Notes under the pieces: generated by a model | The model's input: only the letters and a program-made list of their open reading frames with translations | Told to the model about the DNA's origin: nothing | The model's database searches: none | Translations under genes and position numbers: made by a program | From: Dehalococcoidia bacterium | GTDB taxonomy: Bacteria; Chloroflexota; Dehalococcoidia; Lucifugimonadales; VXLM01 | Assembly (NCBI GenBank): GCA_009841605.1 | Contig: VXLM01000085.1 | Location: 1-64,000 of the forward strand | Length of the DNA stretch: 64,000 nucleotides | Reading direction: 5' to 3' | Part shown: positions 8,949-12,932 of the stretch, in pieces | Layout: the number at the start of each line of letters is the position of its first letter | How positions within the stretch are numbered: position 1 is the stretch's first letter

Positions 8949-9422
8949 CTCACTCCTCCAAGGTCTCATTGCGCCGGTCCGGGATAGCGACCCCAAGACT
9001 CCGGCTCATCGTTGTGCCGAAAATGGGCTTTTCTGTCGCACCAGGTTGATGGAAGCTACCCATGCGGCAGGATTCGTCCACGATCCCGCCACGCGGCGAG
9101 CGATTTTGGTCAAGCCCGGTTCCGGTTTTATCACGTCTGGTGCTGAAAAGCCACTTGGAGACGGCCGTTGCTTTGTAGCATCGATCCAGCAGCCGACGCG
9201 GGATCACAGCCCGGCGTCCAGTTGTGGCGGTGGCGGGCGATAAGAGCAGGGCGTGGACTGAATTGTACTGAACTGCGAATCTTGCTCGGCTCCACTAAGT
9301 TTATTTATTGGAGCTAGTGATATTGCATTCAGATCCTTTCTATTCCATTTAAATTTTCTAGGATACCATGCAGAATGCTCACAAGAACGACACACTAAAT
9401 AAACGTAATGTAGGCACTTTAG
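8949..9422. other. 474-bp gap, left border of the AT-richer island
   Basis: No convincing gene. The left half is GC-rich. From about 9240 the composition becomes clearly AT-richer and stays so through the next three genes. A 63-codon minus-strand frame (9204-9395), starting 28 bp after the methyltransferase stop, contains CxxC and WYPRKF and could be a remnant of a longer gene, but it lacks support. Confidence 0.5.
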
Positions 9423-11021
9423 CTAAGCCAGGAGGTCGGAGAGAGCAGCCGCTGGGACTTTCCCGAGTTCTTTAGGTTCTAGTTTGTGCAACCCACCGCC
9501 ATAGACCCTGCCCTTGCCTATCATCGCGTTCGGGCATATTTCTTGAAGGAACGCCCAGATTTGCCTCTTCAACTGAGGGGTTTCATTGAGTGCCTTAAGT
9601 ATAGACTCCCTCGGGTAAAGCATGAGGTATGAGTTCGGTGCTGTAGCTTGTGAATGATTTAAGATGAAACGGAAGGGCTGACCGTTCTTTTTGCCCCGTC
9701 CAATGTACGTACACAAAAACGGAGCTGCCGGGCGGCGCTCTTGCGAGTACCATGGTATGCGGTGTCGACACAAGTAGCCTTCAGATACGCCTTGTGCCTT
9801 GCCTTCTTCAAGGTAAGCTCCTAGTGCCGGACTCCACTCCTTGATCGTCGCTTCTGAAAGCTGAGAGTCAAGGAGGAACAGCCGCCGATTCAACAAAGGA
9901 TCGCCCTCTGTGTCTGTATGGACTTCGTCATTCACAATGTATCTCGGACTCGGAAGTATGGGGCGAAACGCCTCCAAAGGCAGTTCTCGTCTTTCGATCT
10001 CCTCAGCCGAAAGTATGAAGTATTTGTTGTTTCCAGTAGCCAACCCTCGCTGAATCCTAAAGTAATCTGACAGGACGGGCGAGTCCGGCTCATGGTGGCT
10101 CTCATTCATTGAATACTGAGTCCAGTCTAGGTTATCACGGAGAACGTCGTTCGGCACAATCCGATCCAGACTAGGCTCCTGTAGTGAACCGCCGAACGTC
10201 ATACGCACCGCGTGATTCAGGGGTGTTTTTCCCTTTCTGATCCAGACGACGGAAGAGGACACCAGGGCATCGCCAAATTGAACCTCTTTCGGATCAAATC
10301 GGTGCACATGCAACAATGTTACCTTATCAAGCAAATATCGCTTGACCGAGATCCCGTAGTTTACATCCATAAATTCGCTCGGTATTAGCCATGCAGCCAG
10401 ACCACCTTCTGCCATCCATGCGTGGCTTAGATTGAGGAAGTAACAGTACAGGCCGGCTAAACCGCTGACATCGGAGCCACTTACCTTCTTGGCCTTGAGT
10501 TTGAGACGTTGTTTCTCTGCTCTGACGATATGATGGTGTCGTACGTATGGCGGATTGCACACTAGTAGATTAAATTTTTCTGAGTCAGTTTTAGGAGGTA
10601 CAGCAAGAGTGAAATCTTCTAGGCGTGTTTCTAGAATCGTGTTACTCCATAATTTCGCCGCCGGTGTTCCATAATGAGGGTCGATCTCGTAACCAATAGC
10701 ACAAGCCAGACGATCGTCGGGAAACACCTGCAACAACGCCGAGTAGAACGCTCCAGTTCCAAAGGCTGGGTCGATAAACCGCACAGTGGTTGACTCAGGA
10801 ACGAGAACTCTTGCGTACTGGAGTATCTCGATGGCGAGTTTGGTAGGAGTTGCGAATTGGCCCATCCTGTTCCGTTCAAGTTGATCCTTAGCGGCGTCCA
10901 AATTGGCCTGAACTAGTAGCCGTCGACTCTCTAATGCGGTAACTGTGTTATTCACTGCCAGTTCATCACCCCGATGGCTTTTGGCTTGATGTTCCGTGCA
11001 ACTTACCAATTCCTTCGACAC
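9423..11021 (-). CDS. Adenine-N6 DNA methyltransferase (Eco57I-like, stand-alone)
   Basis: A 532-residue SAM-dependent DNA methyltransferase. A GQFATPTKLA motif X-like segment (54-63) precedes motif I DPAFGTG (84-90) and the catalytic motif IV NPPY (156-159), the order of gamma-type adenine methylases. The C-terminal 300 residues should recognise DNA. There is no N-terminal PD-(D/E)XK nuclease of the kind fused in type IIG enzymes, and no restriction gene follows. It is last in a three-gene operon, 35 bp after the DUF262 gene. Composition is AT-richer than the surroundings, suggesting transfer. It could protect self DNA, or be an active part of a defence system. Confidence 0.88.
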   Translation of the reverse strand: MSKELVSCTEHQAKSHRGDELAVNNTVTALESRRLLVQANLDAAKDQLERNRMGQFATPTKLAIEILQYARVLVPESTTVRFIDPAFGTGAFYSALLQVFPDDRLACAIGYEIDPHYGTPAAKLWSNTILETRLEDFTLAVPPKTDSEKFNLLVCNPPYVRHHHIVRAEKQRLKLKAKKVSGSDVSGLAGLYCYFLNLSHAWMAEGGLAAWLIPSEFMDVNYGISVKRYLLDKVTLLHVHRFDPKEVQFGDALVSSSVVWIRKGKTPLNHAVRMTFGGSLQEPSLDRIVPNDVLRDNLDWTQYSMNESHHEPDSPVLSDYFRIQRGLATGNNKYFILSAEEIERRELPLEAFRPILPSPRYIVNDEVHTDTEGDPLLNRRLFLLDSQLSEATIKEWSPALGAYLEEGKAQGVSEGYLCRHRIPWYSQERRPAAPFLCTYIGRGKKNGQPFRFILNHSQATAPNSYLMLYPRESILKALNETPQLKRQIWAFLQEICPNAMIGKGRVYGGGLHKLEPKELGKVPAAALSDLLA

Positions 11022-11056
11022 CAGCGGTCGTTGATCTTTCTAGCTGGTTTGAACCT

Positions 11057-12076
11057 CTAGTCAACCAACAACTTATAGAAGTGTTCATGTCTTGTTGTCC
11101 GTTCTCTTACGTGGCTAGTTGCCTTAGATAGTGCATCTCGCAAGCGGCTTAGTTCAACAGTGAGATCATCGGCACGGAGTGCACAATCTAGGGATGTCAT
11201 CCTCTTGGAGGTCGTCGAGAAATTGACTAACTTAGTTCTACCATAACCACCTGGTATGCCCCCAATGGTGTCTGCGCTGGCAACCATTAGACTGTAGAAC
11301 CACGCGAGATTACGAAATCGGGTACCTCGTATTGTCTCCCCCAAATCGTTGGCGAGGCGTTCAAAGGCCTCAGAGAACAAGTGTGTGGCTTGAGATTCCT
11401 TTGAGAACTTGAGGTCGTATTGTTCATATTTGTCATCCAATACTTGGATGTCGGAAATGCCATCGATAATTGCGACCAAAATGTCGGAGATCAACTCCGC
11501 TTCGCGCATCCGACTGTATTGCTTGCTTGATATTACCCTTAAATGCCTAAGAGCCTCGATGTGTTTTTCGGAAAGTGCATAGACAGCCTGTTTAAATAGG
11601 CCAGTAAAACGAGCGTGCCGCGTTTCTTGCCGATTAATCGGTACGGTGTAGCGATTCAAGCGAGCAAAGAGCTTCCACACATCCTCGTCTGTTGCCTCTT
11701 CTATCATTTCGACTGTAACACCGTACTCAAGGAATTGCCGTTGCGCGTTGAATGGTAAATCATCAAAGCACATCTCTCCATACTTTTCATGGTGTGGCGC
11801 GTGGATCGGGAAATCACCTGACACGAAACCCAAGATGGCCCCCAGTCGCTGTTGCCCATCGACTACTTCAAATGTTGTTTGTCCACCTTGTCGAAGTACT
11901 CGGACGTATATCTTGGGCATAGGAATGGCCCGGACGATGGTATCTACTAGAAAAGATTGGGCTTCGCGAGACCAGACTGCCCGGCGCTGAAATTTGGGCT
12001 GAATGATCAATCGTTCGCTTTGCTGTAGGCGCACGAGTTCGCTAATCATTTGGGATTCAGTGCGATAACGAGTCAT
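11057..12076 (-). CDS. DUF262 (ParB/Srx-like) protein without nuclease domain
   Basis: A 339-residue DUF262 protein. The hallmark VDGQQRL is at 72-78, preceded by IIQPKFQRRAVWS (24-36) and followed by FARLNRYTVPINRQETRHA, the typical second motif. DUF262 domains hydrolyse nucleotides and drive nucleases in GmrSD, SspE and BrxU defence proteins. Those usually carry a DUF1524 His-Me nuclease domain; here the C-terminus shows no such motif. The start ATG overlaps the stop of the upstream gene by 4 bp (ATGA), implying coupled translation. The partner nuclease, if any, is not obvious. Confidence 0.87.
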   Translation of the reverse strand: MTRYRTESQMISELVRLQQSERLIIQPKFQRRAVWSREAQSFLVDTIVRAIPMPKIYVRVLRQGGQTTFEVVDGQQRLGAILGFVSGDFPIHAPHHEKYGEMCFDDLPFNAQRQFLEYGVTVEMIEEATDEDVWKLFARLNRYTVPINRQETRHARFTGLFKQAVYALSEKHIEALRHLRVISSKQYSRMREAELISDILVAIIDGISDIQVLDDKYEQYDLKFSKESQATHLFSEAFERLANDLGETIRGTRFRNLAWFYSLMVASADTIGGIPGGYGRTKLVNFSTTSKRMTSLDCALRADDLTVELSRLRDALSKATSHVRERTTRHEHFYKLLVD

Positions 12077-12726
12077 GCGAAAACTCCCCACGTGTCCATG
12101 ACCCTACGATGACTCTCCATGACTATTACTCGATCGTCTGGTATATTGTCTGATCCAAACCTACGAATGATTTCTGAGGCGTCCTTATAAGAGTCGACTA
12201 AGATGAACTGGATGTCTTCAAATTCAAATTGAAGAGTTCGAGGCACACGCCACTCTCGTTCGTAGAGAAAATTGGACTCTTCGAGCCACTGTCCCAAGGG
12301 ATCGAATGGCTTAACAAAAGGCTCAAGTTGTGGCGGTATGGAAAGAGAAAGATCCTGTACGATATCTCCCCTGGTGTAGAGTACCGGTCCGCCTCCCCTG
12401 TCAAATATGACTTTCTTATTGAAGCCGATTCCGTATGAACTGAAGTTACCTGTTAGGGTCCTTATGGATCCCCAAACAGTTTCGGAGAAACAAGCAGCTT
12501 CCGGTTTATTCGGCAGATCCGGTTGAGGGGCCGCCTTAATCGATTTCGTTTCCAAGATCGCCTGAAGCTTGTCAAAGGCGGTGGATTCAGTAAACTGGAA
12601 CAAATCGTGGGACGGCCTGATTAGCGATTCACCAGTTATTTTCCCGTGTCCTTTACCGGTGTCACGAGTGAGGTGAATGAGAAAGGGAGAGTAATCGACC
12701 GATTTGTATTGGTCGAAGGAGTTCAT
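12073..12726 (-). CDS. AbiGi/DUF2971-like protein, first gene of defence-like operon
   Basis: A 217-residue protein. It begins near residue 13 with SPFLIHLTRDT, has FDKLQAILETKSIKA, then ACFSETVW at about 79-86, YGIGF near 98, a YEREWRVP segment near 158-165 and a final IQFILVD strand. This pattern (IHxT, CFSE, YEREWR) resembles abortive-infection AbiGi and DUF2971 proteins, whose biochemistry is unclear. The family call is by pattern only. The ATG at 12726 follows GGAAAGG; the frame stays open further upstream. It is translationally coupled to the DUF262 gene. Confidence 0.6.
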   Translation of the reverse strand: MNSFDQYKSVDYSPFLIHLTRDTGKGHGKITGESLIRPSHDLFQFTESTAFDKLQAILETKSIKAAPQPDLPNKPEAACFSETVWGSIRTLTGNFSSYGIGFNKKVIFDRGGGPVLYTRGDIVQDLSLSIPPQLEPFVKPFDPLGQWLEESNFLYEREWRVPRTLQFEFEDIQFILVDSYKDASEIIRRFGSDNIPDDRVIVMESHRRVMDTWGVFA

Positions 12727-12776
12727 TTGCCTTTCCAGCAAACAAGACCAGGGGGCAGTGGTCTGCGGCGAGGGAT

Positions 12777-12832
12777 GGTGTCCCTGACACCCCATTTTAG
12801 TTTCGAGGGTCGAGTATACCACAAGAGTATAC
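12777..12832 (-). promoter_or_regulatory. Candidate promoter/operator of the three-gene operon
   Basis: The upstream region contains a direct repeat GAGTATAC at 12812-12819 and 12825-12832 (13-bp period); each copy gives a TATACT -10-like box on the minus strand. Downstream of it is the hairpin GGTGTC-CCT-GACACC (12777-12791), within the predicted leader. The -35 matches are weak, so an activator or a repressor bound to the repeat is plausible. Confidence 0.35.
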
Positions 12833-12932
12833 ACTTGCTACTCGGCATACTGAGGGCCAACACAATCCAGATCGAAGACGTAACGAGCGTCGCCCCAATG
12901 CCCTTATCAAGGTATCAGAGGGCGGTGGTGCC

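Follow-up and report, generated by a model that had tools for sequence, protein, structure and literature searches.

An inserted islet combining an AbiGi-family protein with a predicted ADP-ribosyltransferase fold, a DUF262 protein and a lone DNA methyltransferase

The DUF262 domain has been assigned as a ParB/Srx-like NTPase and, according to the same review, the effector attached to the DUF262 domain of SspE is switched on by DUF262 NTPase activity (PMC10952713). In Dazbog, the DUF262 protein probably senses methylated DNA, while Menshen consists of a DUF262 protein and an OLD-type nuclease, and PD-T4-2 of a DUF262 protein and a HEPN protein (PMC10952713). An operon of RiboL-PSP-HEPN with ParB has also been reported (PMC3710099). 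A different line of work concerns the lactococcal AbiG system, in which neither AbiGi nor AbiGii is toxic alone in E. coli; many AbiG annotations are, according to these authors, actually AbiE (Dy et al. 2014, PMC3985639).

The locus of interest lies on the minus strand, between positions 12726 and 9423, of a 64,000-nt window (the whole stretch of DNA that was analysed). It consists of three intact, co-directional open reading frames encoding (i) an AbiGi-family protein of 217 aa (12073–12726), (ii) a DUF262 protein of 339 aa (11057–12076), and (iii) a predicted N6-adenine DNA methyltransferase of 532 aa (9423–11021). The AbiGi-like gene begins with an ATG at 12726 and ends at 12073, where its last bases form a 4 bp overlap (ATGA) with the start of the DUF262 gene, an ATG at 12076. 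The methyltransferase gene runs from a GTG at 11021 to 9423, and the 35 bp gap in the preliminary description is correct for this start. Alignments with homologues begin near residue 23–31, so the true start may be the GTG at 10955; the gap would then become ~100 bp. The close packing of the three genes is otherwise as described, with all of their motifs intact. The GC content of the island is 49.0%, versus 61.5% elsewhere in the window, and only 0.17% of same-size windows are equally low. Third-position GC is 0.49–0.52 in all three genes, versus 0.70 and 0.83 in the flanking DUF4389 and PadR genes, respectively. Promoter-like sites at the locus are no commoner than in shuffled sequences.

The source assembly is fragmented (3.2 Mb in 143 contigs; completeness 95, contamination 6), and the history of the locus can be read from a same-genus genome, G003. 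Here, the PadR gene (99% identical) and the DUF4389 gene (96% identical) lie on a single contig, C198, which BLASTN aligns to the window up to breakpoints at 12930 and 9207; where the window has 3,722 bp between these, G003 has 163 bp. Since so little separates the G003 flanks, the trio is a ~3.72 kb insertion (9208–12929), and G003 carries the empty site of a single insertion that brought these three genes only, without a recombinase. The edges of the AT-richer island are therefore real, and the three defence-type genes sit together in one horizontally acquired islet. In a second same-genus genome, G001, similarity also ends directly after PadR, indicating that the insertion site is variable.

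The DUF262 protein belongs to the family by its match to PF03235 (GmrSD_N; 2.6e-19, 70.6 bits against a cut-off of 33.2). Its VDGQQRL box is intact (VDGQQR being residues 72–77), and the DGQQR nucleotide-pocket motif (11846–11860, minus strand) is invariant in all aligned relatives. The best PADLOC matches are NsnA (1.5e-38), which we take to be the DUF262 protein of Menshen, and PD-T4-2_A (9.7e-20). No DUF1524 domain was found by Pfam in this protein or in the two other island proteins, and in an AlphaFold model (pLDDT 94) the C-terminal half is all helical; the preliminary reading of a DUF262 protein with the VDGQQRL box but no DUF1524 thus stands. The model matches BrxU first and ParB/Noc CTPases next, consistent with the assignment of DUF262 as a ParB/Srx-like NTPase (PMC10952713).

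The protein shares with GmrSD, BrxU, SspE and DndI the DUF262 domain with DGQQR and the ParB/Srx-like fold, of which BrxU is the best match, but it lacks their DUF1524/HNH nuclease domain and its C-terminal half is unlike theirs, so the locus is not a Type IV system of the GmrSD/BrxU/SspE kind. With Menshen and PD-T4-2 the locus has in common a DUF262 protein without DUF1524, a match to the respective profile, and an adjoining small effector-like gene. However, no OLD-type nuclease is found among the three island genes, which separates the locus from Menshen. PD-T4-2 differs in its HEPN gene, absent here, and in gene order, the AbiGi gene with its predicted ADP-ribosyltransferase fold lying upstream of DUF262 rather than the partner lying downstream.

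The AbiGi-like protein scores just below the Pfam gathering cut-off for PF10899 (E=5e-4, 20.5 bits against 22.4). PF10899 is matched by every one of the 20 aligned family members (best 2e-40), and PADLOC also assigns it to AbiGi; it is thus an AbiGi-family protein. The alternative label of the preliminary description, DUF2971, found no match in the window protein itself; one relative matches DUF2971, weakly. Profile searches therefore recovered the expected AbiGi, DUF262 and Eco57I families but not DUF2971. No paper was found that mentions DUF262 together with DUF2971, or DUF2971 together with ADP-ribosyltransferase.

Several observations point to an ADP-ribosyltransferase fold for this protein. 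A profile of 20 AbiGi proteins, searched against the PDB, has a sole match, DarT1 of E. coli C7 (8baq, E=0.0012), in the H-F-T region. With an AlphaFold model (pTM 0.75), Foldseek places Thermus DarT first among PDB structures (four entries; best E 0.03, probability 0.82), followed by Arr, DarTG, TreX, cholera toxin and KptA; ADP-ribosyltransferase-fold proteins make up all ten of the best matches, with every E-value above 0.01. Residues H18, Y117, E156, E158, W159 and R160 are invariant across both AbiGi alignments (A3 and A7). His18 (codon 12673–12675, minus strand) lies in an H-L-T motif equivalent to the H-F/I-T motif of DarT, and the HMMER alignment to DarT1 spans it. Glu158 (codon 12253–12255, minus strand), in YEREWRV, putatively corresponds to the catalytic Glu of DarT (QAEFLV): QAE(F/V)LV stands just before the last strand in DarT proteins, EREWR occupies the same place in AbiGi, and the order of H and E is the same. 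Profile–profile comparison of AbiGi with DarT (HHalign) gives a weak result of two short collinear pieces, which we do not count as proof. With moderate confidence, we take it that the AbiGi-like protein probably has this fold; it may also be catalytic.

The preliminary suggestion that the AbiGi-like protein could itself be the missing effector is accordingly strengthened by its profile, fold and motif-order resemblance to DarT-type enzymes, although these are predictions. The likeness to DarT comprises the predicted fold, H-F/L-T at the first strand and a Glu motif before the last strand–helix; the differences are that AbiGi falls below Pfam DarT detection and has EREWR instead of QAE(F/V)LV. 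Nor is the locus a DarTG system, its AbiGi gene being flanked by DUF262 and PadR and not by a macrodomain DarG antitoxin. Membership of PF10899 is what the protein and its relatives share with lactococcal AbiG, but there is no AbiGii gene here, and the second place is held by DUF262. A nuclease role for AbiGi was considered and rejected, as no search returned a nuclease match.

The methyltransferase (METHYLTRANSFERASE) matches Pfam Eco57I (PF07669, 1e-11) and PADLOC MTase_II (5.9e-128), and its NPPY catalytic motif (10545–10556, minus strand) is intact. The closest homologues, 61–63% identical, come from three genomes of the same order. In all three, the gene immediately upstream, which overlaps or abuts that of the methyltransferase, encodes a ~320-aa endonuclease, RE_XamI (PF09572, E 2e-110). 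Plasmid homologues show the same pairing. In total, XamI lies upstream in 10 of 12 close homologue loci; of the others, Geoalkalibacter has an ATP-binding protein instead, and in one the gene is at the start of its record and cannot be judged. By its similarity to XamI-linked methyltransferases (39–63% identity over nearly full length), the enzyme is assigned to the XamI restriction family. Its usual endonuclease is missing: the window holds no gene or remnant, and the enzyme is absent from the assembled genome in a search that was positive for three control genomes (E<1e-144). The genome-wide negative rests on this search, not on a Pfam search run without a positive control. The locus therefore differs from a XamI Type II restriction–modification system, and the methylase is indeed, as first described, an Eco57I-like N6A enzyme without a restriction partner. 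G003 retains a complete XamI restriction–modification pair elsewhere, on contig C570. The target of XamI, and probably of the island methyltransferase, is presumably GTCGAC, which shows weak avoidance in the window (49 sites against 68 expected).

Recurrence of the trio was assessed by running family profiles over fetched loci, several with short flanks. Neither DUF262 nor this methyltransferase was found near any of 35 distinct AbiGi loci, neither DUF262 nor AbiGi near any of 21 distinct methyltransferase loci, and AbiGi near none of 85 DUF262 loci; a distant Eco57I-type methyltransferase lies nearby in three of the 85. Among the loci that could be searched, the trio is thus a singleton. The preliminary description had proposed to look for the trio in other genomes and to count it as a refutation if the genes never co-occurred there; in these limited samples they do not co-occur, and by this standard a conserved trio is not supported. 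The description missed that the DUF262 protein is close to NsnA and PD-T4-2_A, that HEPN-like partners are usual in its family, and that the methyltransferase is of the XamI family. What we have is a real, inserted and unusual combination of known defence parts.

Partners of related DUF262 genes were collected by a scan of genome contigs (the best-scoring 80 relatives among the matches listed), and clustered over 90 distinct related loci, excluding the window. A HEPN-like gene (~205 aa) lies directly downstream of DUF262 in 54 loci, with two more similar cases; 18 loci have a Ser/Thr kinase gene downstream, with dnd-type genes alongside in several; and a nucleotidyltransferase-like gene is upstream in six. 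An adjacent small effector-like gene is thus present in 80 of the 90 loci, and none of the three partner types in ten. In the HEPN-like family, the R and H of an RNxxxH motif never vary and an E is nearly invariant, while its Pfam and PDB profile matches are weak (PF18735, E 0.09). We accept it as HEPN on the strength of the E...RNxxxH motif and the reported RiboL-PSP-HEPN/ParB operon (PMC3710099). Given that operon and PD-T4-2 (PMC10952713), the DUF262–HEPN pair is already known; the new feature here is AbiGi occupying the partner place. The HEPN partner is absent from the source genome in a search with profile A8, which found it in controls G111 and G112 and missed it in G058. In a DUF262 tree, the window protein forms a long, unresolved branch among the partner groups, so its own partner history cannot be read from the tree.

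Tentatively, we favour the reading that a DUF262 sensor and an ADP-ribosyltransferase-type abortive effector are accompanied by a re-used XamI methyltransferase. The overlapping AbiGi–DUF262 pair would be the core of an acquired defence module. The DUF262 protein, as a ParB/Srx-type NTPase and candidate NTP-dependent sensor or switch, would bind NTP and DNA and scan for foreign or modified DNA by means of an NTP-dependent conformational change. Once triggered, it would license the AbiGi-like, DarT-type ADP-ribosyltransferase, which, drawing on NAD+, would modify a nucleic acid or a protein and thereby halt either the replication of the phage or the infected cell. The arrangement would be a PD-T4-2/Menshen-like DUF262 module with an ADP-ribosyltransferase-fold effector in place of the usual HEPN. 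The methyltransferase, its endonuclease lost, may mark host DNA as self for the sensor, the least certain part of the proposal, or may be a XamI-system leftover. AbiGi and DUF262 are the more secure pair, and the methyltransferase is the weaker link. As the pair has been seen once only, the case for its joint function comes from the layout. Counting against this reading, AbiGi genes are usually found singly, on phages and plasmids, and the methyltransferase may be a bystander.

There is a rival account, in which a stand-alone AbiGi, a DUF262 gene minus its HEPN partner and an orphan XamI-family methyltransferase gathered in a variable site and do not cooperate. We hold this to be possible, if somewhat doubtful. 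No two of the three recur together in the loci surveyed (save for three DUF262 loci that have other, distant methyltransferases), most AbiGi genes are solitary, the methyltransferase family normally goes with XamI, and G001 likewise loses similarity at the PadR edge; however, chance does not readily give co-directional packing, a 4 bp overlap and an islet without other genes, nor such like third-position GC with all motifs intact. At the other extreme, the methyltransferase might mark host GTCGAC-type sites, the DUF262 protein detect unmarked DNA, and the ADP-ribosyltransferase replace the endonuclease. The methyltransferase's intact motifs despite the absent endonuclease, the shared islet and orientation, the modification genes beside the DUF262–HEPN modules of three or more relatives (L071, L080 and L082) and the link of Dazbog DUF262 to methylation sensing (PMC10952713) speak for such gating, but with no second example, a methyltransferase set off by 35–100 bp and no strong avoidance of GTCGAC in the window, we consider it unlikely. 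Unlikely, too, is a system in which self marks come from a restriction-type adenine methyltransferase and are read by a DUF262 NTPase, the effector being no nuclease but a DarT-like ADP-ribosyltransferase of the AbiGi family; if true, it would be a new defence architecture, a "restriction-modification" with ADP-ribosylation replacing cutting.

The Pfam title of PF10899, "antitoxin", which rests on the AbiG system, suggests yet another division of roles, with AbiGi as antitoxin or regulator and the DUF262 protein as the toxic part. The harmlessness of lactococcal AbiGi alone would suit a non-toxic role, but also an enzyme that needs a trigger to become active. Against such a division, AbiGii was likewise not toxic and many AbiG annotations are AbiE (Dy et al., PMC3985639). 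The islet has no AbiGii partner, the fold and motif evidence favours an enzyme, and an antitoxin would leave the conserved H and E unexplained; we judge this role very improbable. Returning to the favoured reading, the strongest general point of the analysis is the suggestion that AbiGi, a widespread family currently titled antitoxin, consists of DarT-like ADP-ribosyltransferases, here paired with a DUF262 sensor. If true, this would assign a biochemical activity to a long-known abortive-infection family that still lacks an established mechanism. The partner patterns also suggest a general sensor role for DUF262 proteins, with interchangeable effectors: HEPN, kinase, nucleotidyltransferase and, here, ADP-ribosyltransferase.

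The relatives of these genes yielded further observations. The AbiGi genes recovered occur mostly singly, on plasmids, prophages and viral contigs, and some have other defence genes next to them; none was found in phage records at E 1e-5, while IMG/VR contigs contain them, and within the phylum the family is rare (2 of 251 genomes). The single AbiGi-family, ADP-ribosyltransferase-like genes on prophage and viral contigs (L148–L179) are possibly phage-borne anti-competitor genes. On a Rhizobium plasmid (L023:5929–7861), an AbiGi-family gene immediately precedes that of a Shedu immune nuclease. The 54 modules of DUF262 (~350 aa) followed by the HEPN-like gene, within L068–L140 (e.g., L076:6001–7746), span many phyla and include an archaeon (L098); the HEPN-like partner goes almost unmatched in Pfam and PADLOC, yet the two-gene module is clearly recurrent. 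Upstream of one such module (L071) is directly another kind of methyltransferase. In two phyla (L080:3594–5249 and L082:2004–4400), a ~245-aa protein without a family match, possibly a Type II endonuclease, lies between a distant Eco57I-type methyltransferase and a DUF262–HEPN pair. The nucleotidyltransferase-like gene (GSxxxG...SDID) precedes DUF262 in L123, L129, L132, L141, L142 and L143, and two members scanned had no Pfam match. Lastly, DUF262–kinase pairs adjoin dnd-type phosphorothioation or FtsK-like genes in L065, L066, L099, L101, L116 and L117, and are likely a phosphorothioation-linked defence variant.
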